A stretch of DNA of 64,000 nucleotides. Origin: Chloroflexota bacterium. Its GTDB lineage: Bacteria > Chloroflexota > Chloroflexia > Chloroheliales > Chloroheliaceae. The DNA lies in the NCBI GenBank assembly GCA_028287745.1, contig JAQBPB010000005.1:1-64000 (forward strand), given 5' to 3'. The translations under genes were made by a program, and so were the position numbers. Below, one piece after another: positions 5,332 to 58,531 of this stretch. The notes beneath the pieces were generated by a model. It was not told where the DNA came from and did not search any database. It saw only the letters and a list, made by a program, of their open reading frames with translations. The stretch's first letter is position 1; each line of letters begins with the position of its first letter.

Positions 5332-8196
5332 TTGGCCCTTAAATCAACTCCTCAGAAAATAAAAATGAATAAATTTTCAAGAAATGGCTTGCGCGATTTT
5401 AGAACCAATGCCCCTCGCCTTGTTCGAGGACGCCGCAGTTCTAATAGCCGGATCTTCAAGTTTACCGGGCTGGCAACTCTCCTGGTGATGGGGCTTGCCC
5501 TGTTCGCGGCAGTTTTTGCCGGTGATACCAACCTGGCCGGTCCCACCCGGCCCCTGGGGCAGGCTGCCGCCGCTACTCCCCCTCAAAAAATTAGAAACAA
5601 CCTGCCCATAGCCCTACCCAACACCAAAATGGAAGCTCGCCTGTTCGCCGACCAACACTCTTCACAATTCAACTTTGATAACTTGAACCGCTTGCGCCTG
5701 GAAAGAGCGGTCGCCCTCGGCGAAGTACCGGCCTCGGCCCTGCAAAGCCAGCCGGGCAGTTTTACTCCCGTTCCTGGCTCCTTTCAACCCGCTACAACGC
5801 CTCTTCCGACTAATTCGAGCTATTCAAATGATAATGCCCGCGCCCTGGTCTATACCCCGCCCGAGGCTACGGCGGGGGTGCCGGTCTGCGGCCCTGATCC
5901 CGGTGACGATATTTTCGAGCCGGATGATGCGCCGGGGCCTGCCCGGGATGTCACCGGGTCCGTTTCGCCTGCGCTGCGTGAAACTCACAGCTTGCGTACC
6001 ATCAGCAGTTTTCCGGCTAACAGCCCAGACTTTGACGGTGACAATGATTGGGTTAAGCTGCGCCTGAACCCCGCTGCGACTTATACTTTTTCCACGGCCA
6101 ACCTCAGGCCGACCGGCCCGGTCCCGCTGGATACCATCCTTGAACTGTACCGGGGCACAGCGGCCGGGCCTACTACCCCCATCAATGCCAGCGACGATGC
6201 CGGTCCTGGCAGCCCGGCTTCTGGTTTAACCTATACCACTGCCGCCGGGGATGATGCGGCCGGGGTTTTCTTCTATCTGAGAATTTACGGCAAGCCCAAT
6301 GCCAGTTGCTACGGCACCTACGACCTGGTAATCAGTTACACCACTGTAGTTACCGCAACGGTCGCGGCGACCGTTACCGGCACGCCCAGTACCTGTACGG
6401 ACGATTATGAGAGTGATAACTCTCCCGACCAGGCTAAAGAACTGCGGGTCACTTACGGCCCAACCCCGCCCTTTAGCGGCCAGCCCGGCACTCCCGATTT
6501 TTCGTCGGCCAATAATGATGTCCAGGCCCGGCTTATCTGCCCGGTGGGCGACCTGGACTGGGTCTATTTTGATATGGTTAAGGGCAAGCCTTACAGCCTC
6601 TTTACGACTTCTTTAACCAACGGCCTGGATACCATTTTGATTTTGTTTGAGCAGGATGCCAGCGGGGCCTTGAATCCGCTTTATTCCAATGACGACTTCC
6701 CCGGCATGGGCCTGGCCTCCCGGATAGATTTTATCGTCCCGGCTACGGCCGATACCGCGACCGGCGAATTTACCCGCTACTGGGCCGCCGTAAAGGATGT
6801 CACCGGTAAGGGAGTTGACCGGCTTTCTTATAACCTGGTGCTGCAATCGGCCGGTAAAGCGGCCGGGGATTGTATTGATAATTACGAGCCGGACGGCCTG
6901 CAATCGGTCGCTAAAGAAATCCTTGTGAACGAGGTCCAGACCCACGTTATGTGTCCCAATGGTGAGGCCGATTGGGTTAAGTTTTACGCCAAAACCGGCC
7001 TGACTTATTCCGTCAGGGCGGCTTTCCCGCCCACACCCGGCATGGATACCGACCTGCATGTGTTCTCGGTCCTGTTTGACCCGGCCGACCCGGAAAAGGT
7101 GGTTTCGCAGCGGGAAATCGCCGCCAATGACGACGCCTCGGCGACCGACCTTTCCAGCCAGGTGAGCTTTACTGTCCCGGTGGCCGGTGAGTATTACGCC
7201 CAGGTCAAAAACACCGGCGACGTGGGGCGGCCCGGTATGACCTACCAGTTGACCTATGCCGTGGCCGGTAGCACAGTCGTTCCGCCCACCACCGCTCCCA
7301 GCGGGCCGGCACCCACTCGAACAGCGACAGCCACCGCTACCTCAACACCAACTGTTACTGTTGCGCCTACGGCTACTACCGTGGCTTCCGTCCTGGCCCT
7401 TAAGTTTGCCGACCCGGCTTTCCAGAAACTCTGGTACTACACCGACCTGCCGGTGGCCCAGAACCAGACGCAGCGCAGTTGGGAATGGGGGCCTAAACCG
7501 GGAGTGGTCTTGCATGAGCCCTATGCCGGTTCGCCGGGTGAGGCGCGCCAGGTCCAGTATTTCGATAAGAGCCGCATGGAGATTAATAATCCCAAAGGCG
7601 ACCGGGCCAGCCCCTGGTTTGTCAGCAACGGCTTGCTGGTAAAAGAGTTAATTACCGGGCAGGTGGCCCGGGGCGATTCTGCTTTCGAGCAGCGCAACCC
7701 GGCCCGCCTCCAGGTAGCGGGCGATATTACCCCGGATAATCCCGCGCCGACCTACGCCATGTTTGGCGAACTGACCGGACGGGCCGCCGACCAGACCGGG
7801 CAGGTGGCGAAACAGGGCCTTTCGGCCGGTGGGACGGTCCAGGCGCTGGCTGCGCCACCTGAAAACGTCAGGTTAGCCGCTTACATCGGGGAAACCGGCC
7901 ATAATATCCCCCTGGTTTTCTATGATTTCATGCGGGGTAACGGCAAGGTCTACGAAAAGGGCTATAAAGACGGCCGGTTGCGGGATTGGGTCTTTGCCAT
8001 GGGCTATCCTCTTTCGGAAGCCTACTGGGTTAAAGCCCGGGTTGATGGGGTTATGCGCGATGTACTTGTCCAGGTTTTCGAGCGGCGTGTCCTGACCTAC
8101 ACCCCTGCGAACTCGCCGGAGTGGCAGGTCGAAATGGCGAACACCGGCCAGCATTACTATTTGTGGCGCTACAGCCGCAACCTGCCCGCCGAATAA
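5332..8196 (+). CDS. Large exported protein with PPC-type beta-sandwich repeats
   Basis: 954 residues. A basic N terminus is followed by a hydrophobic segment (about 45-63), giving a signal peptide or membrane anchor. Three segments of about 150 residues each start with a Cys and an acidic stretch (VCGPDPGDDIFEPDD, TCTDDYESDNSPDQAKEL, DCIDNYEPDGLQ) and contain DWVK/DWVYF, the pattern of bacterial pre-peptidase C-terminal (PPC) domains. A Thr/Pro-rich linker (about 650-690) leads to a C-terminal domain of about 265 residues, rich in Trp and Tyr (RSWEWGPKPG, VQYFDKSRME), of a type I associate with Chloroflexota secreted proteins but cannot name. No catalytic motif is visible, so a cell-surface binding or structural role is likely. 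The start is either TTG 5332 or ATG 5365; neither has a good ribosome-binding site. Confidence 0.8.
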   Translation: MALKSTPQKIKMNKFSRNGLRDFRTNAPRLVRGRRSSNSRIFKFTGLATLLVMGLALFAAVFAGDTNLAGPTRPLGQAAAATPPQKIRNNLPIALPNTKMEARLFADQHSSQFNFDNLNRLRLERAVALGEVPASALQSQPGSFTPVPGSFQPATTPLPTNSSYSNDNARALVYTPPEATAGVPVCGPDPGDDIFEPDDAPGPARDVTGSVSPALRETHSLRTISSFPANSPDFDGDNDWVKLRLNPAATYTFSTANLRPTGPVPLDTILELYRGTAAGPTTPINASDDAGPGSPASGLTYTTAAGDDAAGVFFYLRIYGKPNASCYGTYDLVISYTTVVTATVAATVTGTPSTCTDDYESDNSPDQAKELRVTYGPTPPFSGQPGTPDFSSANNDVQARLICPVGDLDWVYFDMVKGKPYSLFTTSLTNGLDTILILFEQDASGALNPLYSNDDFPGMGLASRIDFIVPATADTATGEFTRYWAAVKDVTGKGVDRLSYNLVLQSAGKAAGDCIDNYEPDGLQSVAKEILVNEVQTHVMCPNGEADWVKFYAKTGLTYSVRAAFPPTPGMDTDLHVFSVLFDPADPEKVVSQREIAANDDASATDLSSQVSFTVPVAGEYYAQVKNTGDVGRPGMTYQLTYAVAGSTVVPPTTAPSGPAPTRTATATATSTPTVTVAPTATTVASVLALKFADPAFQKLWYYTDLPVAQNQTQRSWEWGPKPGVVLHEPYAGSPGEARQVQYFDKSRMEINNPKGDRASPWFVSNGLLVKELITGQVARGDSAFEQRNPARLQVAGDITPDNPAPTYAMFGELTGRAADQTGQVAKQGLSAGGTVQALAAPPENVRLAAYIGETGHNIPLVFYDFMRGNGKVYEKGYKDGRLRDWVFAMGYPLSEAYWVKARVDGVMRDVLVQVFERRVLTYTPANSPEWQVEMANTGQHYYLWRYSRNLPAE

Positions 8197-44280: not shown

Positions 44281-47200
44281 CTATACCCCTCGATAGGCTT
44301 TTGGCGACTGGCCGATAATCGCCCGGAAAACGCGGCTGAAATATGCCGGGTCTTCCAGTCCCACCTCATTCGCGATTGATGTGATACTCAAATCGGTAGT
44401 TTTAAGTAAAAACCTGGCTTGTTTAACTCGAAAACGGTTAAGGTACTCCCAGGGAGAAATACCAGTCTCCTGGTGGAAAATCTCGCCCAGGTAGTTCTTG
44501 CTAATCCCCATTTCGTGCGCAATTTCTTTAAGGGTAAGCGGACTGGAATAATTTTGCTGTAAATAGGCAATAGTCCGTTTGACAAGCATGCTATTTGACT
44601 GGGTCAGCAATTTTGTATCTCCTGCCACCTGTTGTAAAAGGTTGGTTGCTTCCTCGGAATGCAAGATATCTTTGGTCTGATAGATAACCCGGCTGAAATC
44701 AAGATTTTGTATATCTTCCGGCGAAAGGACTTTGCCGCTGATAACCAGCACCGGCACATTCCGGGTTGCCAGGTTGGTCCGTAACCATTCGATTACCTCG
44801 AACCCATTAACTTCGGGCATTACCAGGTCAATAATCACCAGGCCAGGAATAAGCTGTTTGAGTATGGTTATAGCACTGGTGCCATTGTCTGCCAGGTTGA
44901 TTGTATAGCCGGGTAGCGCTTCCTTAACCAATTGGTGGTACATATTAAGGGACTGAATATCATCGTCAACGATTAGAATTTCACCCAGACCTTCCTTCTG
45001 ACATAAAATTTCGAGCATGCCTGTCAGCGTCTGGTAATTGAAGGGCTTGAGTAGAATATTGGTTAAAGAGGATTGCGCGCCTTCTGGTGAATTATCTTTA
45101 TATAACATAAAAGGCAACTGGGCTAATTGCGGGGTGGTTCGTAAGTAATCCAATACCGTCCAATCGTTTTTTGTCGCGTTGTTACTGTCCCAAACAAGGA
45201 TTGAGGGGTTTAATTCCAGTAATTGCTGGCGTACATCAGCCGGGCGAAGCTGGTAAATACAGAGATCTTCCCGCTGGCTTAATTGTTCCTTTTCAGGTGA
45301 GGCACCCTGGCGATTGGTAATCCATACTAAATTTTGCTTGCCCTGGTTAACTTCCGGTAGAGTCAGAAATTGACCGCTCAGGTTCGGTAGGGGTATATAA
45401 ATGTGAAAAGTACTGCCAAGGTTGGGCCGACTTTCGACCTTGATAATCCCCTGGTGTAACATCACCAGGCGGCGGCTAATGCTCAAACCCAGGCCAATTC
45501 CCCTGGTGTGCCGGTTGGGCTGCTCACCTATCACGAAAGGTTCAAAGATAGAAGCTTGCTGGTCGGCGGAAATGCCTTGCCCGGTGTCTTTGACCCAGAT
45601 ATGCATATAGGGCGGCTGTACATCCGCGCCTAAAGTAATCTTGCCGTTCCTGGTGAATTTACTGGCATTACTTAACAGGTTTAACAAAACCTGGCGCAGC
45701 CGCATCGGGTCGGCTTGGAGTAAAGGCAGGTTCTGGGGCACTTCTAATTGCCATATATTTGTTTCCTGGCTAGAAGTGGCGCTGGCTATACTATTGAAAA
45801 CATCTTCCAGAAATACCTGGAGATCCATAATTTCCGGTGAAATCTCAAGTTCGTCTATTTCAGCCAGGGAAAGGGCCAGCAGGTCATTAATCAATTGTAA
45901 TAAATGTTCCCCACTCTGGTAAACATGGGAAAGATCCGAGGTAATTTCGGCCGCCAATTCGGCACTGAACGGGCTTAGCTCATTTAAGGCCGCTTTGGTA
46001 TAACCCAGGATGATATTGAGCGGAGTCCTTAGTTCATGACTGACATTTGCCAGCAAGCGGGTTTTAAGGTTATCCGCTTTTTCGGCTGCTTTTCGGGCCG
46101 CTAAAGCCTCTGAATACAGTTCGGCGTTATGGATGGCAATCGCCAGTTGGTCCGCAAGCAGTTGCAAGCCCATCAATTGTTCCCGGTTCTGGGAGGTAGG
46201 GCAATCCCGGTGTAAATCCAGTACTCCCAGGACGGTTCCGCCAAAACGGACCGGCAAAATTATCCTTGAACGCAACTGGGGCCATTGAGGGTCGGCCCGG
46301 AAGCGCTGGTTGTAACGCATATCAGGCACAAAGATCAATTCCCCGGTCATCAGTACTTCACTCAATACGGCATCTTCTTGCAACATTACCTGGTGGGATT
46401 TGGTGGTACTATCCAGGTCATCCAGCATAAAAGCATGAGTTGCTTCGGACCATAGATAGAATTGCACCCGGTCAAAATTATAGTTGCTGCGAATCAGGTT
46501 GACGATAGTCTGCGTAAGTTCTTGGCGGTCTAAAATCGCGCCAATCTGGCGGTTGACAGCCAGGTTGGTTTCCAGTTGGGTCATCCGCTGCTGCTCACGG
46601 CGGCGATTGAATCCGACCAGACGGTTGGGCAGTTCAGCAATTGCAATAAGCTTCTGGGCCGTTACTTCAGCCGCATTCTCCCTGGTAATTAGCCGGGGTT
46701 TGTAGCTAAAATGCATGGTCAGGGGCTGTCCCAAAGCCGCCTTCAAAGCCAGTTCCACGGCTTGCTTGCCGAATTCAACAGTTGGCGTATCCACAGTAGC
46801 CGCCATTGTCCCGCTTGAAATAGCCGCCAGCGCTTCCGGGTCGCCATTTATTCCAACCACAATTGTTTCTGGCGTCAGCAAGCCGAGTTCTTCGGCTGCT
46901 TTGCGAGCGGTCAGGGCCAGGGAGTCCGACAAGCCAAAAATTACATTCGGTCGCGAACTTAATTTTTGCATTTCGGCCAGTATCTGGGGGTAGGCCTGGT
47001 CGTACCGCCAGAGAGAGGGGATATGCGAAACCTGGATGGAATTGTAGTTTTCAAATGTATTATAAATGGCCGCTAACCGGTTACGGCCGTCATCCCCATG
47101 ATGGGTTGCCAGGCCGCCAATTACCAGGACTGTACCCTGTACATGCAGTTCTTTTATAAGGTGCTGGCTTAACATCTGGGCAATCCAGTACAGGCCGAAG

Positions 47201-47523
47201 GGACATACCATGCCAGGGTGATTGCATTTCTGCTCGTGGCAGCCTGGCTGTTCATTTAAAAGAATAACCGGGATATTCTGGTTGCGGATAAGTTTAATTA
47301 ATGGCGCAGGCAAACTCTGGACAATAAAACCCTTTATTTCCTGGATCTGCAATTCTTCAACAATGCTTAAGTAATCCCCTTCCTGTAAATTGCCGTAGTC
47401 AATGTCAAAAGTGATTAAATCAATATCCAGGTGTCGCGCTTGTTGCTCAATAGCCATACCCACTTGAACCCAAAAGGCGTCACTGGACTCCAGTTGTAAA
47501 CCAATACGGATAGTATTTTCCAT
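44281..47523 (-). CDS. Chimeric sugar-sensing histidine kinase/response regulator with AraC DNA-binding domain
   Basis: 1080 residues and no membrane helix or signal peptide. Order: LacI/ribose-type periplasmic-binding-protein fold (1 to about 300, with an odd CHEQKCNHPGMVC cluster), GAF (about 325-475), HisKA (NVSHELRTPLNII, phospho-His), HATPase (LLNLLSNASKF, DTGQGIS, GIGLGLSI), a degenerate receiver (about 735-850), a canonical receiver (ILIVDDD, VIIDLVMPEVNG), and an AraC/XylS double helix-turn-helix (about 975-1080: LTLKEIAHEMGISKNYLGEI, DPAYFSRVFR). It should sense a sugar inside the cell and bind DNA itself. Divergent from the galactoside locus, it is that locus's likely activator. AGAGAGG precedes the ATG. 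Confidence 0.88.
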   Translation of the reverse strand: MENTIRIGLQLESSDAFWVQVGMAIEQQARHLDIDLITFDIDYGNLQEGDYLSIVEELQIQEIKGFIVQSLPAPLIKLIRNQNIPVILLNEQPGCHEQKCNHPGMVCPFGLYWIAQMLSQHLIKELHVQGTVLVIGGLATHHGDDGRNRLAAIYNTFENYNSIQVSHIPSLWRYDQAYPQILAEMQKLSSRPNVIFGLSDSLALTARKAAEELGLLTPETIVVGINGDPEALAAISSGTMAATVDTPTVEFGKQAVELALKAALGQPLTMHFSYKPRLITRENAAEVTAQKLIAIAELPNRLVGFNRRREQQRMTQLETNLAVNRQIGAILDRQELTQTIVNLIRSNYNFDRVQFYLWSEATHAFMLDDLDSTTKSHQVMLQEDAVLSEVLMTGELIFVPDMRYNQRFRADPQWPQLRSRIILPVRFGGTVLGVLDLHRDCPTSQNREQLMGLQLLADQLAIAIHNAELYSEALAARKAAEKADNLKTRLLANVSHELRTPLNIILGYTKAALNELSPFSAELAAEITSDLSHVYQSGEHLLQLINDLLALSLAEIDELEISPEIMDLQVFLEDVFNSIASATSSQETNIWQLEVPQNLPLLQADPMRLRQVLLNLLSNASKFTRNGKITLGADVQPPYMHIWVKDTGQGISADQQASIFEPFVIGEQPNRHTRGIGLGLSISRRLVMLHQGIIKVESRPNLGSTFHIYIPLPNLSGQFLTLPEVNQGKQNLVWITNRQGASPEKEQLSQREDLCIYQLRPADVRQQLLELNPSILVWDSNNATKNDWTVLDYLRTTPQLAQLPFMLYKDNSPEGAQSSLTNILLKPFNYQTLTGMLEILCQKEGLGEILIVDDDIQSLNMYHQLVKEALPGYTINLADNGTSAITILKQLIPGLVIIDLVMPEVNGFEVIEWLRTNLATRNVPVLVISGKVLSPEDIQNLDFSRVIYQTKDILHSEEATNLLQQVAGDTKLLTQSNSMLVKRTIAYLQQNYSSPLTLKEIAHEMGISKNYLGEIFHQETGISPWEYLNRFRVKQARFLLKTTDLSITSIANEVGLEDPAYFSRVFRAIIGQSPKAYRGV

Positions 47524-48310
47524 ATCTACCTCTCTGGTTCAGCAATGACCAGAATTTCATTATAACTATTGATTTTTATTACATTTTCCAGTTTTTATTT
47601 AAGATTGGCGTTAATACTTGCCGCCCGGACTCACTGAAATTAGCAGCTATACCATTCAAGGCAGCTACTTCACTTAATTCTTTTACCATCCGGTGCGGTC
47701 TGCAAAAAGGGTCCACACTCTTACACATCTCGGCTAATATTTAAAATGCCGTTGGTACTCAGCTACCACCGCTCTACCAACCTGGCGACAAAAGGGTAAC
47801 AGGCGGGGCAGTCTGGGAGCCTGCACTTCTTTATATACACCAAAGTAAAATGCACCCGCTACGCTATTACACGTGCATTCTCCCCGTAATTCTGCCCGCC
47901 CGCGGCCCTGTTTAAAACCTGGTATCCATCTCGTTTTGTTGCTGGGTAGTCTGACGGGCGATTAGCTTTTCCGGCCCCTGCGGGCATTTCCACTTACTCC
48001 ACCTGCTGTGCAGCAAGATGGAATGTGTCACACACTGATTATATTTTGATAGGTATGAGGAGAGCTAATCTGTAATTGCGTCTAAAGTCCAACGTCAAAT
48101 TAATAAGGTGCTTAAAATGAAAATCTTAATAAGCATCTTTATATCTGACTTTAACAGTTAATTTTCATAATTGTAACATAAGGGAAGGGATTTGCAATTT
48201 TGTTAAATTAGCGGGTTATCATCCAAAAGTAGTGGGTAATTGTCCAAGACTTGCCTTTTAAACTTAGCTAGAATGGACTCACACAAATATACCAGTAAAG
48301 TTAAATAAAT
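47524..48310. other. Long divergent regulatory region of the galactoside locus
   Basis: No gene in 787 bp. Contents: minus-strand TATAAT (47559-47564) for the regulator gene; inverted pair AATGCAC/GTGCATT (47849-47855, 47873-47879); palindromes TGCTGTGCAGCA (48004-48015) and TGTGTCACACA (48024-48034), the latter next to TATATT (48040-48045); direct repeats at 48213-48247 and a -10-like TAGAAT (48269-48274). The size and motif density suggest complex control. Confidence 0.55.
48213..48247 (+). promoter_or_regulatory. Direct repeats 21 bp apart, candidate AraC-type operator
   Basis: GGGTTATCATCCAA (48213-48226) and GGGTAATTGTCCAA (48234-48247) agree at 11 of 14 positions and start exactly 21 bp apart, two helical turns. 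The second abuts the poor -35 region of a promoter with -10 TAGAAT (48269-48274). This is the geometry of AraC activator half-sites. Confidence 0.55.
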
Positions 48311-48691
48311 ATGGAAAACTCGGCTCTAAAAATTTTATTACTTGACGACGATATACCAACCCTTGAACTTTACCAACGTGAGCTGAGTAGAACTTATTTA
48401 GTTTTCGCCTGTGCTACTGAGAGTGAGGCCTTTACTTTAATATACGGCCACCAGATGGAGGCCATTATTCTAGAGCCTGCTTTACGCAGTGGGCAAGGTT
48501 GGGCTTTTCTGGCGATGTTGAGAGGTCTGCCACAAACCCGTACTACTCCGGTTGTCCTGTGTAGTATTTTGGACGAGCGACGGCGGGGAAGGGAACTTGG
48601 TGCAACTATCTGTCTGGTCAAACCGGTATTACCGGCAGAGCTTCGTAATACCCTGGACCAGGTTGTTTATACCAAACACAAGGTTTCGTAG
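48311..48691 (+). CDS. Receiver-domain protein lacking the phosphoacceptor Asp
   Basis: 126 residues, one receiver domain and nothing else. The acidic triad D12-D13-D14 (ILLLDDDIPTLELY), S85 (VVLCS) and K104 (LVKPV) are kept, but the strand-3 phosphorylation site reads AIILEPALRS, with Glu55 where Asp belongs. In canonical receivers Asp-to-Glu often mimics phosphorylation, so the domain may be locked active or act only by binding a partner. No output domain is attached. It is the first gene downstream of the direct-repeat operator and precedes the sugar transporter by 193 bp. Confidence 0.8.
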   Translation: MENSALKILLLDDDIPTLELYQRELSRTYLVFACATESEAFTLIYGHQMEAIILEPALRSGQGWAFLAMLRGLPQTRTTPVVLCSILDERRRGRELGATICLVKPVLPAELRNTLDQVVYTKHKVS

Positions 48692-48884: not shown

Positions 48885-50348
48885 ATGAAGAAAACCGCAA
48901 GGGTGCGATACCTTTATGTTTCCATGGTTCTAACCATGCTGCTGTGTTTGGTAATGGCCTGTGGCGATTCCACCCCCACAACCGCTGGCACCGGCAGCAC
49001 CAAGGCCGGGTCACCCGCCGCCGCTGCCGCAAATACCCCTAAACCTACCGCCACAACCCTTGCCCTGCAGGTCGGTAGTACTAGCGCCAAGGTTAACTTA
49101 ACCTATATGACCTGGGGTGGTGATAGCGATAAAACCAGAAGGTTCAAAGAAAACCAGGCCGCTTATCCTGAATTTGCCGACTATAGTATGAGGTTATTAG
49201 CCCAGGGCGGTGATGCCGATGTGGCTAGCTTTTTGCGTTTAGCCCTTACTTCCGGCAAAGATATCCCGGATATCTTGCAGCTTAACCGCACGCAACTGGC
49301 CGAATTTGCCGAATCCGGTGAGTTGACCGACCTGACCTCGGTAATGGAACCTTTCAAGGCAGATTTGACCGCCGGTGCCCTCAATATTGCTACATACAAT
49401 GGTAAGTTCTTTGCTTTCCCCAACCAGGTAAATAGCAAAATCTGGTATTACCGGGCGGACCTGTTTGAGCAGGCTGGGATTAATGTTAACAACATCAAGA
49501 CGCTGGCTGACCTTATCAGCGCCGGTAAGACTCTGAACGCCAAGTTCCCCAAAAGCTATATCTTTAATATCAGCTCGCAACTCTGGGCCAGCTACCTGCC
49601 AATGTTCCTTTCGGCTTACCCTGACATTCGTATGGCTAACGACAATGGGGAATACCAGCTTACCAAGCATCCTGGCTTTGCCGAAGTTCTAAAGATGTTC
49701 AAAGACCTCAAAGACTCCGGTGTGGCGGCCCCGATTGATGACTGGTCCAACGACTGGCAGCAGGCATTCAAGGATGAAACCATTGTTTCTGCTTTTAGCG
49801 CCAGCTGGATGGCTACCTTTCTACCTACCTTTGCCCCTAACCAGAGCGGTAAATGGAAGGCTACCCTTTGGCCCAGCGGCTTAACCTCGGCTGACCAGCG
49901 GTATGGCGCGGAAGGTGGCGGTTCGGTAACAGTAGTGCCTAAACGGGCCCCGCATGCCAAGGAAGCTATCGCTTACCTGACCAAAAACTACCTGAACAAG
50001 CAAACCCCGGTTAAAGATTACCAGAACGGTGGTGTCACACCCTATCTTAAGAGCGCGCAGAGTGATGTATTGAACTTCATCAATGGCGCGACCAAACCGG
50101 CCGATTTAGCTGAAGAAAAGTGGTTACAGCGTCCCTATGTCTTCTTTGGGAAGGAATTCCAGCCCCTGGTCTTCCAGAGTTTCGACTACGTCAAGGCCTT
50201 TAATTACGATCCCGCCGCCGCAAAAGAGCTTGAAATCTTCAGTCAATGGGCCCGCAAGTATATAAACGGGCAGGTCCCTTTGAATGATGCTCTGGCCGGG
50301 GCGCAATCTGATATGCAAAGCCAGATCGGCAACCCTTATCAGAAATAG
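48885..50348 (+). CDS. Sugar ABC transporter substrate-binding lipoprotein
   Basis: 487 residues. A basic N terminus, hydrophobic stretch and lipobox LVMAC (Cys about residue 26) show a lipoprotein signal; a Thr/Ala/Pro-rich linker follows. The rest is a family-1 (MalE/UgpB-like) extracellular binding fold (NLTYMTWGGDSDKTRRF, IPDILQLNRTQLAEFAESGE, NGKFFAFPNQVNSKIWYYR, PHAKEAIAYLTKNYL). The start is ATG 48885 with AAGGAGGA immediately upstream; the longer frame to 48765 is not used. It captures an oligosaccharide, probably a galactoside given the downstream enzymes, and hands it to the two permeases. Confidence 0.92.
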   Translation: MKKTARVRYLYVSMVLTMLLCLVMACGDSTPTTAGTGSTKAGSPAAAAANTPKPTATTLALQVGSTSAKVNLTYMTWGGDSDKTRRFKENQAAYPEFADYSMRLLAQGGDADVASFLRLALTSGKDIPDILQLNRTQLAEFAESGELTDLTSVMEPFKADLTAGALNIATYNGKFFAFPNQVNSKIWYYRADLFEQAGINVNNIKTLADLISAGKTLNAKFPKSYIFNISSQLWASYLPMFLSAYPDIRMANDNGEYQLTKHPGFAEVLKMFKDLKDSGVAAPIDDWSNDWQQAFKDETIVSAFSASWMATFLPTFAPNQSGKWKATLWPSGLTSADQRYGAEGGGSVTVVPKRAPHAKEAIAYLTKNYLNKQTPVKDYQNGGVTPYLKSAQSDVLNFINGATKPADLAEEKWLQRPYVFFGKEFQPLVFQSFDYVKAFNYDPAAAKELEIFSQWARKYINGQVPLNDALAGAQSDMQSQIGNPYQK

Positions 50349-50477: not shown

Positions 50478-51419
50478 ATGAAGGAAAATATATCACCTGT
50501 GCTTGAAACAGGTAAGGCACTGCCAAAAGTAAAATCAAAAGTGATTAGAAATGTCGCGTGGGTAGACCGGTTAGCCCCTTACCTGTTTATTTCACCGTTC
50601 ATTCTTTTCTTTTTAGCTCTTTTCATCGGCCCCAGTATCTATTCTTTGGTCCTTAGCTTCTTCCGCTATAAAGGTTATGGCGATGCTACCTTCGTGGGTA
50701 TAGCCAACTATGTTTCTATTTTGCAGTATCACGTCTTCTGGACTGAACTGGTAAATACTATCTTTTACTGGCTGGTCCATGTTATTCCTTTGATGGTAGG
50801 CGCTTTCCTGCTGGCGGTCCTGGTCAGGTCCAAGTTTATAAAAGGACAGCGTTTCTTCAAGCCGGTTCTGTTTGTGCCGAACATTGTCGCAACCGTTGCT
50901 GCCGCCCTGGTCTTTCAGAGCTTGTTTGGCACCCAGTATGGCGTCATAAACAAGCTTCTGGGTACGCAGATTGATTGGCTCCATGACCCCACCATAACCA
51001 AATTTGTAGTAGTGCTCCTGTTAATCTGGAAAGGGCTTGGCTGGTGGTTCATAATTTTCCTGGTTGGCCTGACCTCGATTAATCCTGAATTAGAGGAGGC
51101 CGCCACCGTAGATGGTGCGTCAGTCCGGCAGCGCCTGGTTTACATTGTTATTCCTCTCATGCGCAATATCTTCCTGTTTGCCTTCGTTATTGATGCTATA
51201 AATTCTTTACGTATGTTTACCGAGCCGAATGTGCTGGTAGGCAGGTCAGGCCAGTTAGCGGATCCTGAAGTAGCACCTTTACTAAACTTGCTTATCAGCA
51301 ATTTGCGGGGGGCTTCCTTTGGTCAGGCTTCGGCCGTGGGTTGGATCTTATTTGTACTGACACTTGGTATTACCTTAATCCAATTCCGCATTTTACGCAG
51401 CAGTGATGAGGAGCGCTAA
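50478..51419 (+). CDS. Sugar ABC transporter permease (MalF/UgpA-like)
   Basis: 313 residues, six membrane helices (first at about 35-57: PYLFISPFILFFLALFIGP). The cytoplasmic EAA loop is EEAATVDGASVRQRLVYIVIP, which docks the ATPase. KGLGWWFIIFLVGL and the ending match the carbohydrate-uptake CUT1 permeases. AGAGG precedes the ATG. It ends 2 bp before the partner permease. Confidence 0.93.
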   Translation: MKENISPVLETGKALPKVKSKVIRNVAWVDRLAPYLFISPFILFFLALFIGPSIYSLVLSFFRYKGYGDATFVGIANYVSILQYHVFWTELVNTIFYWLVHVIPLMVGAFLLAVLVRSKFIKGQRFFKPVLFVPNIVATVAAALVFQSLFGTQYGVINKLLGTQIDWLHDPTITKFVVVLLLIWKGLGWWFIIFLVGLTSINPELEEAATVDGASVRQRLVYIVIPLMRNIFLFAFVIDAINSLRMFTEPNVLVGRSGQLADPEVAPLLNLLISNLRGASFGQASAVGWILFVLTLGITLIQFRILRSSDEER

Positions 51420-51421
51420 CA

Positions 51422-52300
51422 ATGGCTAGTAATGCTACTTTTGTATCGAAAAGCGGTGAAGGTCAGGCCAGGTTTTCCTCAAAGCGCCTCAAAAAGTTTT
51501 TTGGCTACCTGGTTTTGTGGATTTTATCCTTTCTCTCGCTGTACCCGTTAGCCGTGATGGTACTTAATTCCTTCAAAACCGATACCGAAATTAACGGCAA
51601 CCCTTCCGGCATACCGGAAAACTTTACCCTGGAAAATTATACGCAGATCTTCGCGGTCCAGGGTGGGTTAATCGGGAACTTTATGAATGGGATAATTATT
51701 GCCCTCATAACAACGGTTGTTTCTGTTTTCCTGGCCGCCATGGCCGCTTTTGCCTTCTCCAAGTACAGTTTTAAGGGGCGTAACATTATTTTTGCCTTCC
51801 TGTTGTCTACGATGATGGTCCCTCATGAGATAACGATACCCCCGCTTTTTCTAATTTTCTCCAAGCTTGGTTGGGTTAATACTTTCCAGGGCATGATTGT
51901 ACCGGGGCTGGTAAGTGTATTCGGTTTGTTCATGCTCAGGCAGTATATGCTGGGCGTGCCAAACGAAATCTTCGAAGCTGCCCGGATAGATGGTGCGGGG
52001 CATTGGCGGCTTTTCTGGTCAATAATGGTGCCGATTGCCAATCCGGCTATCGCTTCGCTGTCTATTCTTCAGTTCCTGGGCACCTGGAACAGCTACCTCT
52101 GGCCGATCATTATTGCACCGGACCCCAGTATTCAACCGATTATGGCCGTCCTGCCGACCATCCGGGACCAGCAAGGTTACGCACCTCTCTGGGCGACCAT
52201 TATGACCGGCTGCGTACTTGCTACTTTGCCCGTTATCCTGGTGTTTGTCATCTTCCAGGACAAATTTATCTCTGGCGTTACGGTAGGCGCTGTTAAATAG
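51422..52300 (+). CDS. Sugar ABC transporter permease (MalG/UgpE-like)
   Basis: 292 residues, six helices. VLNSFKTDTEINGNPSGIPE is the typical first outside loop, and EAARIDGAGHWRLFWSIMVP is the EAA loop. It forms a heterodimer with the upstream permease. No ATP-binding subunit gene lies in the locus, so a shared MsmK/UgpC-type ATPase encoded elsewhere is expected. GAGGAG at the end of the previous gene serves as ribosome site. Confidence 0.93.
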   Translation: MASNATFVSKSGEGQARFSSKRLKKFFGYLVLWILSFLSLYPLAVMVLNSFKTDTEINGNPSGIPENFTLENYTQIFAVQGGLIGNFMNGIIIALITTVVSVFLAAMAAFAFSKYSFKGRNIIFAFLLSTMMVPHEITIPPLFLIFSKLGWVNTFQGMIVPGLVSVFGLFMLRQYMLGVPNEIFEAARIDGAGHWRLFWSIMVPIANPAIASLSILQFLGTWNSYLWPIIIAPDPSIQPIMAVLPTIRDQQGYAPLWATIMTGCVLATLPVILVFVIFQDKFISGVTVGAVK

Positions 52301-52430: not shown

Positions 52431-54599
52431 ATGTCTATAACTTATCTGGCCGACAATAACGCCTGGCTGATCGAAACAACGAGTACTGCATATGTTTTTG
52501 GAGTTAGCGAAAATAACTCACTTTTTCATTATTACTGGGGCAGCCGCTTGCCCCACGCCAGCGACTACCCCGGCCTGGGGCCATTAAAAAACCAGCATAT
52601 CTACGATAAAGGCGGGATAGCGGCCCTGGAATATGCGGGCTGGGGAGGGCTTAATTTCACTGAACCGGCCCTGAAAGTTACTTTCGCGGATAACGTGCGC
52701 GACCTGGTCCTGGTTTACCAGGACTACAAAATTGTCAACGGTAAGGACTTTACCGGGCTGGAAGTAACTGTTAAAGACACTTACTTTCCTCTCCAGGTAA
52801 AACTTTCTTACCGGGTCTTTGCAGACACGGATATTATCGAGCGGTGGGCTACGGTTATCAACCAGGGGGATACTCCGGTGAGAATCGAGCAAGCGATGGC
52901 CGGTACGCTTTTCCTACCCTCGCCTGGTGAGGGAAACTACCGCCTAACCCACCTGGCCGGCCGGTGGGGAGCCGAGTTCCTGCTAAACCAAATGCCCATT
53001 ACCGACGGCAAAAAGACCCTGGAAAGCCGCCGGGGGCATACCTCTAACCAGGCTACTCCCTGGTTTGCCCTTGATTATGTCCAGCCGTCCGGTAGCGGTG
53101 CCGATGAAGACCAGGGCCAGGTCTGGTTCGGGGCGTTGGGCTGGAGTGGTAACTGGGTTATCTCTGTCGAGCAGACAACTTACCCGGTGGTAAAGAGCGT
53201 GCAGATTAGCGCCGGAATTAATCCTTTCGACTTTGGCTGGCATCTCAAACCTCTCCAGAGCTTTAAAACTCCCGTATTAAGCTTTGGTTACACCAATCAG
53301 GGCTTCGGTGAAGTTAGCCGCTTGCTGCACCGCTACCAGAACCGCCACATATTACCCGCAAAATTTTTAGATACACCGCGCCCGGTCCTGTATAACTCCT
53401 GGGAACCTATCAGGTTCGATGTGCGCGAGGAAAGTCAGATAAAACTGGCCGAAAGAGCGGCCCGGATGGGAGTGGAGCTTTTCGTGGTGGATGACGGCTG
53501 GTTTGGTGCGCGAGATAACGACCGCGCCGGGCTGGGAGATTGGACCGTCAGTCCTTCAAAGCTGCCGGAAGGTCTTGGCCCTCTAATCAACTATGTGCAT
53601 TCGCTGGGCATGCAATTCGGGTTGTGGGTTGAGCCGGAGATGATAAATCCTGACAGCGACCTGTACCGGGAGCATCCCGACTGGGTCTACCATTTCCCCA
53701 ACCGGGCCAGGACCGAAAGCCGCAACCAGCTTGTCTTAAATTTGTCCCGGCTGGATGTGCAGGAATACCTGTTTAACGTATTGGATAGCCTGCTGGAAAA
53801 TAATGATATTGCCTATATTAAATGGGACTACAACCGCTCGGTCAGCGAACCGGGCTGGCCGGAGGCCGCCCCCGAAGAACAGCGTGAGGTCTGGGTCAGG
53901 AGCACACTTGGCTTTTACACTTTGCTTGACCGTTTAAGAGAGGCCCATCCCGGCGTATCCTGGGAATCATGCAGCAGCGGCGGGGGCCGGGTAGACCTGG
54001 GAGTGCTACGCCGGACCGACCAGGTCTGGACGAGTGATAATACCGACCCTTATGACCGGCTTTTTATCCAGGAGGGCTATACTTTAGGCTATACGCCCCG
54101 CGCAATGTACAGCTGGGTTGTAGATTCGCCGCACTGGCTGGGTAAGCGGGAAACTTCCCTGGCCTACCGGTTCCACTCCAGTATGATGGGCGGCCTGGGT
54201 ATTGGCGGCCATATTCTAAACTGGCCGGAAGAAGAGATTGCGACTGCCCGCGAGATGGTGGGGCAGTACAAACAAATCCGCCACCTGGTCCAGGATGGCT
54301 TGCTCTACCGGCTGCTTTCACCTCGCCACGGTAGTTATACGGCCGTTTCTTACGTCAGGGAGGACCGGCAAGAAGCGGTGCTTTTTGTCCTGACGCTGGG
54401 CAGAAGGCTTGGTTTAGCGGTGCCGCGAATCCGGTTGAAAGGTTTAGAACCGGCTACTCTTTACCGGGTGGGGGGCCTGGGAACCAGTCAAATTACTTTA
54501 AGCGGGGCAGCCCTGATGGAACACGGCCTCAGCTTTGAACATCTCGCCTACGATTTCGCCAGCACCATGGTCCAAATAAAGGCCAGCGCCATGTCCTAG
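52431..54599 (+). CDS. Alpha-galactosidase, glycoside hydrolase family 36
   Basis: 722 residues, the usual length. An N-terminal beta-sandwich (HYYWGSRLP, W-rich loops) precedes a TIM barrel: FVVDDGWFGARDND, GLWVEPEMINPDSDLYREHP, YIKWDYNRSVSEPG (nucleophile Asp), WESCSSGGGRVDLGVL and WTSDNTDPYDRL (acid/base Asp), then a C-terminal beta domain. It releases terminal alpha-galactose from raffinose-type sugars or galactomannan pieces. No signal peptide, so it acts in the cytoplasm on imported oligosaccharides. No clear ribosome-binding site precedes the ATG. Confidence 0.94.
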   Translation: MSITYLADNNAWLIETTSTAYVFGVSENNSLFHYYWGSRLPHASDYPGLGPLKNQHIYDKGGIAALEYAGWGGLNFTEPALKVTFADNVRDLVLVYQDYKIVNGKDFTGLEVTVKDTYFPLQVKLSYRVFADTDIIERWATVINQGDTPVRIEQAMAGTLFLPSPGEGNYRLTHLAGRWGAEFLLNQMPITDGKKTLESRRGHTSNQATPWFALDYVQPSGSGADEDQGQVWFGALGWSGNWVISVEQTTYPVVKSVQISAGINPFDFGWHLKPLQSFKTPVLSFGYTNQGFGEVSRLLHRYQNRHILPAKFLDTPRPVLYNSWEPIRFDVREESQIKLAERAARMGVELFVVDDGWFGARDNDRAGLGDWTVSPSKLPEGLGPLINYVHSLGMQFGLWVEPEMINPDSDLYREHPDWVYHFPNRARTESRNQLVLNLSRLDVQEYLFNVLDSLLENNDIAYIKWDYNRSVSEPGWPEAAPEEQREVWVRSTLGFYTLLDRLREAHPGVSWESCSSGGGRVDLGVLRRTDQVWTSDNTDPYDRLFIQEGYTLGYTPRAMYSWVVDSPHWLGKRETSLAYRFHSSMMGGLGIGGHILNWPEEEIATAREMVGQYKQIRHLVQDGLLYRLLSPRHGSYTAVSYVREDRQEAVLFVLTLGRRLGLAVPRIRLKGLEPATLYRVGGLGTSQITLSGAALMEHGLSFEHLAYDFASTMVQIKASAMS

Positions 54600-54711: not shown

Positions 54712-56814
54712 GTGGATCAGACAAATAATTTGGATGCAAACAATAAGGATTTAAGCAACTTTTCAGCCAAAACTCCCACAGTTTTTTACGGGGGCGATTA
54801 CAATCCGGACCAGTGGCCGGAGGAAGTCTGGCTGGAAGATGTCCAACTGATGCGGGAGGCCCGAGTAAACCTGGTATCCCTGGGGATATTTTCCTGGGCG
54901 CGTCTGGAGCCGGTCCAGGGCCAGTACGATTTTGACTGGCTCGATAGGATAATGAATTTGCTTCACCGGAATGGGGTAATGGTAGACCTTGCGACCGCGA
55001 CGGCTTCGCCACCAGCCTGGCTTGCCTTGCAGTATCCGGAAAGTTTACCGGTCACTAAAGACGGCACCACTTTATGGCCCGGTTCGCGCCAACAATACTG
55101 CCCGCATAGCAAAGCCTACCGCGAAGCGGCGGCGCTATTGGTGTCGCAAATTGCTACTCGCTATCGCAATCACCCGGCCCTGGTGATGTGGCATATCAAC
55201 AACGAATATGCTTGCCACGTCAGTGAGTGCTTTTGCGATGCCAGTGCGGCCGCTTTCCGGGAATGGCTGCGGCAGCGCTATGGCAGCCTGGAAAGGCTTA
55301 ATGATGCCTGGGGAACGAGCTTCTGGAGCCAGCACTATGCCGATTGGGCCGAAATAAATCCTCCCAGGACTACTCCAACTCAAATCAACCCTACCCAGCA
55401 GCTTGATTGGCAGCGGTTTTGTTCCGACTCTATTTTAGAATGTTTCCAGCTTGAGCGGGATATCCTGCGCGGGATTACCCCGGCTATTCCTGTTACCACA
55501 AACTTCATGGGGTTCTTTAAGCCGTTAGATTACTGGAAATGGGCGGGCCGAGAAGACATTGTTTCCGATGACGCCTATCCCGACCCGTCAGATTCCACTT
55601 CCCATGTTGATACGGCTATGCGGTTCGACCTGATGCGCTCGCTGGGCCAGGGTAAGTCCTGGATTTTAATGGAGCAGGTGACCAGCCAGGTTAACTGGCG
55701 GCCTCAGAACGTCCTGAAACGGCCCGGCCAGATGCGAATGTGGAGCTACCAGGCGGTGGCCCGGGGCGCTAACGGCATTATGTTCTTCCAGTGGCGGGCT
55801 TCCCGGTCCGGCGCTGAGAAATTCCACGGTGCACTGGTCCCTCACGTGGGCACCACCAATTCCCGAGTTTGGCGCGAAGTGAAACAACTGGGCCAGGAGT
55901 TGAGCCAGTTATCAGAAGTTCTCTACAGCCGGGTCACGGCAGAAGTAGCCATCCTTATGGATTGGGAAAGCTGGTGGGCGCTGGAAATACCTTCCAAGCC
56001 TTCTACCAGTATAAGTTTTATCAACCAGGTAAAAGCTTACTACGCGCCGTTGTTCGCTAAAAATATACCGGTTGATTTCGTATCACCGGAAAGTGACCTG
56101 TCAAAATACCGGGTAGTGCTACTGCCTAACCTGTACCTGGTCAAAGAAAGCACTGCCCAAAGGCTTAACCAGTTCGTGGCTGGAGGTGGCAAGCTGGTGA
56201 TGTCCTTCTTCAGTGGGATTGTAAATGAAGAGGATCATATCTACCTGGGCTGCTACCCGGCCCCTTTCCGGGAAATGCTGGGCATAAGGGTGGAAGAATT
56301 TGACCCTTACGTACCCGGCCAGACCAATTCAATCAATCTGGCCGGGTACGGTGAATACAAGTGCGAACTCTGGAGTGATGTAATTGACCTGGAAGGCGCT
56401 GAAGCTCTTGCTACCTATGGGTCCGACTTTTACGCCGGAAAGCCTGCACTAACTCGTTATCATTATGGCAAAGGGGTCAGTTATTACCTGGGTACCCAAC
56501 CGGAAGCGGCCGCGATGAGCCTGCTGCTGGCCCGGGTCTGTGCGGAAGCGGGGGTAAAACCTACCCTCGCCGTACCGGAAGGCGTTGAAGTGGTCCGGCG
56601 CGAGACCGGGGATAGTGCCTACCTGTTCCTGATAAATCATAACAACACCAACGTAGAAATAACCCTGGATCAACCTGCCAGTAACCTGCTGTCTCAAAAG
56701 AATGAGTCGGTGGAAGCTGCATCGTTGATCTCGCTTGAAGGCTATGGAGTGGCAATCTTAGCAAGCAAGATTTCTAATCCTGGAATAGATCAGCCTGTAA
56801 TGGGCAATAAATAA
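54712..56814 (+). CDS. Beta-galactosidase, glycoside hydrolase family 42
   Basis: 700 residues. YYGGDYNPDQWP-like opening (FYGGDYNPDQWPEEVWLEDV), VSLGIFSWARLEPVQG, HINNEYACHVSECFCDASAA (Glu acid/base followed by the zinc cysteines), ILMEQVTSQVNWRP (nucleophile Glu), and a trimerisation domain with YYLGTQPE near the end. It removes beta-galactose from short oligosaccharides in the cytoplasm. Together with the alpha-galactosidase it covers both anomers. The start is GTG 54712, weakly supported. It precedes the first PhyH gene by 16 bp. Confidence 0.94.
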   Translation: MDQTNNLDANNKDLSNFSAKTPTVFYGGDYNPDQWPEEVWLEDVQLMREARVNLVSLGIFSWARLEPVQGQYDFDWLDRIMNLLHRNGVMVDLATATASPPAWLALQYPESLPVTKDGTTLWPGSRQQYCPHSKAYREAAALLVSQIATRYRNHPALVMWHINNEYACHVSECFCDASAAAFREWLRQRYGSLERLNDAWGTSFWSQHYADWAEINPPRTTPTQINPTQQLDWQRFCSDSILECFQLERDILRGITPAIPVTTNFMGFFKPLDYWKWAGREDIVSDDAYPDPSDSTSHVDTAMRFDLMRSLGQGKSWILMEQVTSQVNWRPQNVLKRPGQMRMWSYQAVARGANGIMFFQWRASRSGAEKFHGALVPHVGTTNSRVWREVKQLGQELSQLSEVLYSRVTAEVAILMDWESWWALEIPSKPSTSISFINQVKAYYAPLFAKNIPVDFVSPESDLSKYRVVLLPNLYLVKESTAQRLNQFVAGGGKLVMSFFSGIVNEEDHIYLGCYPAPFREMLGIRVEEFDPYVPGQTNSINLAGYGEYKCELWSDVIDLEGAEALATYGSDFYAGKPALTRYHYGKGVSYYLGTQPEAAAMSLLLARVCAEAGVKPTLAVPEGVEVVRRETGDSAYLFLINHNNTNVEITLDQPASNLLSQKNESVEAASLISLEGYGVAILASKISNPGIDQPVMGNK

Positions 56815-56830
56815 TACCTGGAGGATAATT

Positions 56831-57652
56831 ATGACGACAGTCGAATATGACTTGATAAATTACCAGGAGAAGGAGCCGCACCGCAAGATAGAGGTGCAGG
56901 CTACCCCTGAACAATTGCAATCTTTCGCTGAAAATGGCTACCTGGTGCTGGAAAGGGTGCTTACGCCGGAGCACCTGGAAGAACTGCGCAACGGCTTGAT
57001 GGAGGTTGTAGAGCGGGAGAACCCCCCTTCCAAGAAACAAAGTTATGGTAGAGAATACGGCGGAATTTATGCCCGCGGGTTGCTCGACAAGCATAAAGCT
57101 TTTCATTCCCTGATTAACTTCCCCCCGGTTACTACGGTGGCCCAGGCCATGCTCGGCCCGCGCATTCAAATCAGGTCTTTTAGCGGGCGGGTTACTTATC
57201 CGGACGCTCCCGCCGAGACCAAGTGGCATATTGATAACCGGAGTTGGATTGAGCCGATGCCGCCATTCTATATCTACCCCAGTTCCATCAATTGCATTTA
57301 CTACCTGGATGACCTGACCCCGGAAACGGGCGGTTTAGGCGTCGTGCCCGGTACGCACAAGCACTCCACCCCGCCGCCGGACGATTTCAGAGAGATTCCC
57401 GAAGAAGTAGTCCTGTATGTACCGGCCGGTAGTGTGGTGATGAAGAATACGGGCATATGGCACCGGGGTAGAATTAATAAACCGGGCGGCGGCATTCGGC
57501 GCAACCTGCTGGTCGGCCATAGTCCTATCTGGATGAAACATGCCAACTTCGACGGTTTTTCCAATGTTGGCGGCGAGTTAACCCGGCCGCTTATTGAAAA
57601 CGGTGACCCCTTTATGCGTGATTTATTGGGCGCTGAACACGGCTTAGGATGA
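56831..57652 (+). CDS. Phytanoyl-CoA dioxygenase (PhyH) family protein, copy 1
   Basis: 273 residues. Double-stranded beta-helix 2-oxoglutarate/Fe(II) dioxygenase: KWHIDNRSW gives the H-x-D iron ligands, IWHRGRINKPGGGIRRN supplies the distal His and an Arg for 2-oxoglutarate, and GLGVVPGTHKHS is the usual loop. A hydroxylation of a small molecule, possibly a sugar-linked or lipid compound, is expected; nothing shows which. About 89% identical to the next gene. GGAGG precedes the ATG. Confidence 0.88.
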   Translation: MTTVEYDLINYQEKEPHRKIEVQATPEQLQSFAENGYLVLERVLTPEHLEELRNGLMEVVERENPPSKKQSYGREYGGIYARGLLDKHKAFHSLINFPPVTTVAQAMLGPRIQIRSFSGRVTYPDAPAETKWHIDNRSWIEPMPPFYIYPSSINCIYYLDDLTPETGGLGVVPGTHKHSTPPPDDFREIPEEVVLYVPAGSVVMKNTGIWHRGRINKPGGGIRRNLLVGHSPIWMKHANFDGFSNVGGELTRPLIENGDPFMRDLLGAEHGLG

Positions 57653-57709
57653 GCCAATTCGCCTTTCCTGACCTCACAACAGTGACTTGAGTAAATTTGG
57701 AGGACAATG

Positions 57710-58531
57710 ATGACCACAGTCGAATACGACCTGATAAATTACCAGGTGAAGGAGCCGCACCGCAAAATAGAGGTGCAGGCTACCCCTGAACAATTGCAAT
57801 CTTTCGCTGAAAACGGCTACCTGGTGCTGGAAAGGGTGCTTACGCCGGAGCACCTGGAAGAACTGCGCAACGGCTTGATGGAGGTTGTAGAGCGGGAGAA
57901 CCCCCCTTCCAAGAAACAAAGTTATGGTAGAGAATACGGTGGTATTTACACGCGGGGTCTTCTCGACAAGCATATAGCTTTTCATTCCCTGATCAATTTC
58001 CCGCCGGTAACCACTATCGCCCAGGCCATGCTCGGCCCGCGCATTCAAATAAATTCATTCACCGGCCGGGTTACTTATCCGGACGCTCCCGCCGAGACCA
58101 AGTGGCATATTGATAACCGGAGTTGGATTGAGCCGATGCCGCCTTTTTACAAATATCCAAACTCAATCAATTGCATTTATTACCTGGATGACCTGACCCC
58201 GGAAACGGGCGGTTTAGGCGTCGTGCCCGGTACGCACAAGCGCTCCACCCCGCCGCCGGATAACTTCGATGACATTCCCGAAGAGGTAATCTTGTATGTA
58301 CCGGCTGGCACGGTTGTAATGAAAAACACCGGGGTCTGGCACCGGGGAAGGCCCAACAAACCGGGCGGCGGGGTAAGGCGCAACCTGCTGGTCGGCCATA
58401 GTCCTATCTGGATGAAGCAGACCCGGTTTGACGGTTTTGCGGAAACCGGCGGGGCCCTGACCAAGCCGCTCATAGATAGTGGCGACCCATTTCTGCGCGA
58501 CATACTGGGCGCTGAGCACGGGTTAGGGTAG
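57710..58531 (+). CDS. Phytanoyl-CoA dioxygenase (PhyH) family protein, copy 2
   Basis: 273 residues, a tandem paralogue of the preceding gene. The same iron ligands (KWHIDNRSW, VWHRG) are intact, so both should be active. The first 80 residues differ at one position, while residues 178-266 differ at about twenty, many near the active-site entrance (PPFYKYPNS, KRSTPPPDNFDD). This suggests a shifted substrate. The second of two adjacent ATGs is used, by alignment with copy 1. TTTGGAGGACA lies upstream. Confidence 0.88.
   Translation: MTTVEYDLINYQVKEPHRKIEVQATPEQLQSFAENGYLVLERVLTPEHLEELRNGLMEVVERENPPSKKQSYGREYGGIYTRGLLDKHIAFHSLINFPPVTTIAQAMLGPRIQINSFTGRVTYPDAPAETKWHIDNRSWIEPMPPFYKYPNSINCIYYLDDLTPETGGLGVVPGTHKRSTPPPDNFDDIPEEVILYVPAGTVVMKNTGVWHRGRPNKPGGGVRRNLLVGHSPIWMKQTRFDGFAETGGALTKPLIDSGDPFLRDILGAEHGLG

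Follow-up and report, generated by a model that had tools for sequence, protein, structure and literature searches.

How a single soluble protein could sense a sugar, relay a phosphoryl group and bind DNA, and what a receiver encoded beside it without the usual phospho-acceptor residue might do, were the questions raised by one locus of a Chloroflexota bacterium. The locus lies in a stretch of 64,000 nt (GCA_028287745.1, contig JAQBPB010000005.1, positions 1-64,000, forward strand), referred to here as the window. It contains a gene for a hybrid sensor and regulator with periplasmic-binding-protein-like (PBP), GAF, HisKA, HATPase, receiver (REC) and AraC domains and, as a separate gene beyond a gap of 787 bp, a stand-alone receiver in which Glu replaces the expected Asp (the pseudo-receiver). 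Comparison of homologous loci demonstrated that the two genes were conserved as a pair and that an operator-like layout preceded the pseudo-receiver gene. The central features of the window are as follows.

44281..47523, minus strand: hybrid sensor/regulator, 1080 aa, soluble, PBP-GAF-HisKA-HATPase-REC1(pseudo)-REC2-AraC (open reading frame (ORF) list, Pfam, hydrophobicity, homologues)
48217..48274, plus strand: predicted operator-promoter (layout conserved over loci; exact sites solely ahead of pseudo-receivers)
48311..48691, plus strand: stand-alone pseudo-receiver, 126 aa, Glu55 at the phospho-Asp position, Ser85 and Lys104 kept (ORF, Pfam, alignment, model)

A soluble hybrid protein

The length of 1080 aa was counted from the first possible start, as the ORF list contained no earlier one. 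The following domains were assigned, all on the minus strand.

46624..47523, minus strand: Peripla_BP_4, ribose/galactose-binding-protein-like domain, aa 1-300 (Pfam 13-266), no signal peptide (Pfam, PDB sequence matches, Foldseek)
46132..46530, minus strand: GAF, aa 332-464 (Pfam)
45868..46065, minus strand: HisKA, aa 487-552, phospho-acceptor His496 in NVSHELRTPLN (Pfam; conserved in homologues)
45385..45711, minus strand: HATPase_c, aa 605-713, N and G boxes intact (Pfam, alignment)
45004..45342, minus strand: REC1, degenerate receiver, aa 728-840, Asp779 and Lys826-Pro kept (alignments, model)
44680..44979, minus strand: REC2, canonical receiver, aa 849-948 (Response_reg), phospho-acceptor Asp899, Lys951 (Pfam, alignment)
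44290..44523, minus strand: AraC-type DNA-binding domain (HTH_18), aa 1001-1078 (Pfam)

HisKA, HATPase, a receiver and HTH_AraC are combined in a single polypeptide, as confirmed by Pfam and motifs, which is the make-up of a hybrid two-component system. The H-box, N-box, G-boxes and canonical REC2 were intact across the aligned homologues, and the dimerization and histidine phosphotransfer domain (DHp) was the best-conserved region of the hybrid over the loci. REC1 (728-840) was missed by the Pfam scan of the hybrid protein. Alignment of homologues showed that its acidic pair was lost while W-D and K-P were retained, and the predicted structure gave it a receiver-like fold and strands; the full-length model had a predicted template modelling score of 0.37 and was interpreted within domains only. 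The preliminary description of this DNA, made from the window alone, had assigned two receivers to the hybrid. Both are indeed present, but the first is itself a pseudo-receiver. No DDR motif was seen by eye in the window sequence of the linker preceding REC2.

A membrane helix was not detected in the hybrid. The top 19-residue window reached a Kyte-Doolittle value of 1.9 near strand 3 of REC2, and as this maximum lies inside the REC2 core, the protein was regarded as soluble. A hydrophobicity scan of 15 homologues likewise found no hydrophobic segment. Both the soluble architecture given in the preliminary description and the contrast it drew with the membrane-spanning systems of Bacteroidota were thereby confirmed.

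The Peripla_BP_4 match scored 73.4 bits against a Pfam cut-off of 35.1, and the PDB profile match to 2ioy had an E value of 2e-28. The domain was nearest to ribose, allose and glucose-galactose binding proteins in the PDB sequence matches, and to GanP and ribose-binding proteins in Foldseek. The conserved residues D15, F/Y17, W18, W172, S199-D200 and N226 suggest a sugar pocket. A loop with three Cys residues (C95, C100, C107; window 47200-47242) was also observed in the PBP domain as a possible metal or disulfide site; a metal site was rejected, as only some close relatives have the loop.

Conservation of the gene pair

The pair was searched for in 158 genomes of the class, and then in named genomes and by a scan of the phylum. 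Among the 158 genomes the hybrid was found in three Chloroflexia families, nearly always with an adjoining pseudo-receiver, and members of Anaerolineae type and of Caldilineales came from the named genomes and the scan of the phylum. The window's own genome contained one close relative of the hybrid (58 percent, C11), which also had a pseudo-receiver next to it. Of 27 stand-alone receivers, all except one or two had the hybrid kinase alongside. The genes are about 9 kb apart in G075, and L095 is a small contig without the kinase side. The prediction that both genes would be conserved beside sugar ABC (ATP-binding cassette) transporters, on which the preliminary description had staked its interpretation, thus held over the searched genomes.

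The divergent arrangement, also part of that description, was seen in the window's genus and some others, but elsewhere the genes were colinear (kinase, pseudo-receiver, permeases). A divergent pair was therefore rejected as the defining feature; what was constant, and absent from the preliminary description, was that the pseudo-receiver gene led its unit downstream of a common operator. Separately, the hybrid gene of L081 (8113-11012, on a contig shared with L108) was split over several frames in the draft, likely by assembly error or decay, with the pseudo-receiver and a recognisable operator intact.

The stand-alone pseudo-receiver

The 126-aa protein matched PF00072 at 33 bits (cut-off, 30.2), and its receiver fold was modelled at a mean predicted local distance difference test (pLDDT) score of 92. 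As the preliminary description had stated, the phospho-Asp is replaced by Glu (Glu55 in the alignment), which places the protein among the aspartate-less receivers. In that class Glu is what most often takes the place of Asp (26 percent; PMC4395418), so that the Glu by itself was not surprising here; the second acidic residue is also frequently missing. The site was, however, strongly conserved, with Glu in 26 and Asp in one (G033) of the 27 sequences, which came from genomes of Chloroflexia and of Anaerolineae type. The conserved Lys and Ser/Thr were retained, and the second acidic residue was gone in many. Some copies diverged to as low as 26-30 percent identity, and the Glu, Pro56, Cys84, Ser85 and Lys104-Pro-x-x-Pro were near-invariant over deep lineages. 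Compared with REC2 of the same locus, the pseudo-receiver showed higher conservation in alpha1 and the K104 loop and lower conservation in the alpha4 region. The protein retains the receiver fold and the alpha1 and beta5-alpha5 face used for kinase docking, and has no Asp to take a phosphoryl group. The proposition that Glu is always needed was rejected, as G033 and the companions of arabinose type described below have Asp.

A conserved operator ahead of the pseudo-receiver

Comparison of the intergenic regions gave the full consensus TTTTnTCCAA-N11-TATTnTCCAAGAC-N18-TAnAnT, consisting of a 21-bp direct repeat followed by a -10 box. Upstream DNA sufficed for the comparison at 26 loci, and every one of them had the core layout TCCAA-N16-TCCAAGAC-N18-TAnnnT, with variations, ahead of the pseudo-receiver, irrespective of kinase orientation. 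The window site has TCCAA at 48222, TCCAAGAC at 48243, a spacer of 18 bp and the -10 sequence TAGAAT at 48269-48274. The repeat in the window was not significant against shuffled sequences when considered alone, and significance came only from comparing loci: for 25 of the 26, the leave-one-out operator score, with the test locus excluded from training, was higher than that of any of 60 shuffles. An exact-site search of the 158 class genomes, made blind to genes, returned six sites, all of them before pseudo-receivers, compared with one hit for the reversed control pattern. When 400 genomes of the phylum were searched, the only matches were two sites in the window's genome. These distributions suggested that the regulator is local.

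At the colinear loci the operator sits between the kinase and pseudo-receiver genes and not ahead of the kinase, which makes the pseudo-receiver the first gene of the regulated unit. The operon that it heads is most likely activated by the hybrid protein. Class II activation is known for the AraC family, and the fixed 18-bp spacing would put the proximal repeat on the -35 region, the class II position. In two loci a palindrome-like GGAAACGATTCCA was also observed between the pseudo-receiver and transporter genes (L022:8847-9100, L024:7711-7972), with a LacI gene at the operon end; these palindromes probably represent a second, LacI-type control.

Concerted loss and sister units

The hybrids of L096/L104 and L111 lacked both RECs and had the phospho-His replaced (Glu, Gln), with PBP, GAF and AraC retained.

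L111:1150-4902: REC-less, His-less hybrid
L104:8571-11174: REC-less, His-less hybrid

No member of the pseudo-receiver family above the general receiver background was detected in the L096/L104 or L111 genomes. L111 (1150-4902) keeps a weak operator ahead of an epimerase-CUT1-GH36 operon. At L110 (10001-13335) both RECs were lost and the His-box was intact, followed by the operator, a pseudo-receiver and an oligopeptide-type transporter ATPase. This pattern of loss fits a pseudo-receiver that works with a His-containing DHp, and is suggestive, as there were two losses only.

A sister unit of arabinose type was present in the window's own genome (C97, L141:3287-17415). There, a hybrid with a LacI-type PBP domain (L141:3287-6862) is followed by an operator-like site (6986-7043), an Asp receiver, CUT1 genes, an FGGY-family kinase, a class II aldolase-like (araD-like) gene called by eye, araA (L-arabinose isomerase) and GH42. 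The same LacI-type hybrid, site, receiver and transporter were found in L162 of G001, and the companions of both L141 and L162 carry Asp. A companion receiver was not seen with most other LacI-type hybrids of the class. From these sister units, a stand-alone receiver encoded first in the target operon appears to be a wider theme, of which the Glu version is one branch.

Comparison with known systems

E. coli XylR joins a cytoplasmic PBP/LacI-like sugar domain to AraC and activates uptake and catabolism genes, with no kinase, receivers or companion. The hybrid shares the cytoplasmic PBP and AraC domains, but its HisKA, HATPase and REC2 are intact and the sugar domain is not linked directly to AraC. 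The PBP sequence matches also included PDB 2x7x ("sensor protein"), which we take to be the fructose sensor BT1754. This membrane-spanning hybrid two-component system of Bacteroidota binds its fructose ligand on the periplasmic side (PMC3404733). As in BT1754, a PBP-like sensor, HisKA, HATPase, REC and AraC form one polypeptide beside a sugar locus, here the CUT1, GH36 and GH42 genes with the operator, whose control by the hybrid is predicted. The periplasmic sensor with transmembrane segments has no counterpart: unlike BT1754, the present hybrid has no membrane helix or signal peptide, contains GAF and an extra pseudo-REC1, and is accompanied by an ABC transporter instead of SusC/D and by the companion pseudo-receiver.

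Coupling of a sugar sensor to a kinase is also known from XylFII-LytS and CuaD-type systems. In these three-component systems of Firmicutes a PBP-like sugar sensor acts with a kinase that controls sugar uptake (PMC10384115); unlike the domain studied here, their sensors are separate proteins outside the membrane.

The best Foldseek match of the hybrid was ShkA of Caulobacter, in which c-di-GMP on REC1 regulates the kinase and a separate transcription factor is activated (PMC7010744). Like ShkA, the hybrid is a soluble kinase with a pseudo-REC1 between the catalytic domain and a canonical REC2; ShkA has neither PBP nor AraC. ShkA sets a precedent for control of a hybrid kinase by a pseudo-receiver inside the same protein (PMC7010744). 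The stand-alone protein resembles ChxR, RitR, FrzS and the receivers of the aspartate-less receiver survey in having a receiver fold without phospho-Asp, but stands apart from these in that it has a single domain, goes with one kinase family and is encoded first in the target operon.

No Chloroflexota system with the hybrid, operator and companion was described in the literature searched, which did not extend to subscription papers, where a description may exist. The conserved unit of the three was regarded as a new variant of hybrid two-component system, cytoplasmic and linked to ABC transporters, in which the predicted sugar sensing has moved wholly into the cytoplasm. Its short, locus-specific operator offers a means to predict operons in a poorly studied phylum.

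Proposed mechanism and alternatives

An imported galactoside, or galactose freed from it, would bind the PBP domain in the cytoplasm, and GAF and a long helix would carry the signal on to the kinase. There, His496 would autophosphorylate and hand the phosphoryl group to Asp899 of REC2, upon which the AraC domains may bind the 21-bp direct repeat at 48217-48274 with its proximal half over the -35 region (class II). The pseudo-receiver-CUT1-GH36-GH42 operon would thus be activated with the pseudo-receiver as its first product, which would probably dock on the kinase DHp in competition with REC2 or REC1 and tune the kinase as feedback on operon output. The domains make it probable that sensing, phosphorelay and DNA binding occur in one soluble protein, and it is likely that the hybrid is a soluble sugar-responsive activator of the window operon. 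Action of the pseudo-receiver on this kinase is moderately likely, and a negative sign of the feedback is favoured weakly. For the whole, a cytoplasmic one-polypeptide sugar-responsive activator with a companion pseudo-receiver, the chances are about even. The preliminary description had reached a similar interpretation, which was supported in part: all modules are in one soluble polypeptide and the pair is conserved.

Several points weigh against this proposal. The companions of G033, L141 and L162 carry Asp, showing that the Glu is dispensable in places, and the conservation of alpha1 could serve any partner. The paralogue L023 (G001:C72) has no adjacent pseudo-receiver or operator, in a genome with two other pairs. 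The argument from His loss involves two lineages. Binding, phosphorylation and DNA binding are predicted, the AraC domain being assigned to the operator only from position and conservation.

If the Glu imitated a phosphorylated receiver, the pseudo-receiver might instead pair with REC2, or relieve inhibition by REC1, and lock the activator on in a feed-forward manner. Asp-to-Glu does mimic phosphorylation in some receivers, but the change alone often fails to activate (PMC4395418). The Foldseek matches included the constitutively active PhoB mutant D10A/D53E, and in the top hit, ShkA, a pseudo-receiver beside REC2 gates the hybrid kinase (PMC7010744). The distance correlation to the pseudo-receiver was highest for REC2 (0.96), but such mirror-tree values were high for all domains and hence uninformative. 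As conservation of the pseudo-receiver is poor in the alpha4-beta5-alpha5 face that serves for pairing, and L110 keeps the protein though both RECs are gone, feed-forward action was considered unlikely. In another reading the hybrid would resemble E. coli XylR as an AraC regulator gated by its ligand, and its kinase module would be structural. Against this, the window protein and the majority of its homologues have the REC2 Asp and the H, N and G boxes intact and highly conserved. Direct gating is nevertheless possible, given that PBP, GAF and AraC persist in the two lineages where the phospho-His and both RECs have disappeared, and that L111 has its weak operator; we assign it a small probability.

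The pseudo-receiver could also act on the transporter side, as a cytoplasmic ABC transporter adaptor that reports or limits transport, with the kinase only regulating it. Its gene is indeed first ahead of the transporter in most loci. The transporter following it, however, is CUT1 in most loci and oligopeptide-type in L130, with an oligopeptide-type ABC ATPase in L110; as the transporter family varies and the pseudo-receiver is constant, the kinase fits better as the partner. Furthermore, the pseudo-receiver was lost where the kinase lost its His, yet L111 keeps its CUT1 operon, and transporters without a pseudo-receiver are the rule, making this role quite unlikely. The copies of 26-30 percent identity and the Asp companions of the arabinose-type loci would be compatible with a functionless remnant of a former single-domain response regulator, which is highly improbable in view of the near-invariant residues over deep lineages and the conserved operator that is always kept.

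Returning to docking of the pseudo-receiver on the kinase, the operon's first product would, if this is true, set the gain of its own sensor as a dedicated decoy-receiver feedback. A loop of this kind, widespread in Chloroflexota, in which every operon activated by a cytoplasmic sugar-sensing hybrid kinase opens with a conserved receiver that is not phosphorylatable, binds that kinase and sets sensor gain, is conceivable but doubtful. How bacterial pseudo-receivers are activated and inactivated was called a mystery in a 2025 review; such proteins are common, and their switching and targets are mostly unknown (PMC12632262). An obvious partner, a promoter in common and a clear gene context make the question testable with two proteins in the present case.

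Operon contents and sugar specificity

The operon continues behind the pseudo-receiver gene of the window as follows.

48885..50348, plus strand: sugar ABC transporter substrate-binding lipoprotein (SBP_bac_1), ATG at 48885 (ORF, Pfam)
50478..51419, plus strand: CUT1-type permease 1 (BPD_transp_1) (ORF, Pfam)
51422..52300, plus strand: CUT1-type permease 2 (BPD_transp_1) (ORF, Pfam)
52431..54599, plus strand: GH36 alpha-galactosidase (Melibiase) (Pfam, E 3e-122)
54712..56814, plus strand: GH42 beta-galactosidase (Pfam, E 1e-160)

The GH36 and GH42 neighbours, and these only, point to galactosides as the candidate substrate in the window. Enzymes of alpha-galactosidase type recurred among the loci, which supports galactosides in the window: L082 and L111 share GH36 with it, and L083 and the loci of Roseiflexaceae type carry GH4, which includes alpha-galactosidases. 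In L021 their place is taken by an enzyme of the alpha-amylase family, so that specificity must vary among loci. A tandem pair of closely similar PhyH-type dioxygenase genes (56831-57652 and 57707-58531) was found behind the galactosidase genes of the window.

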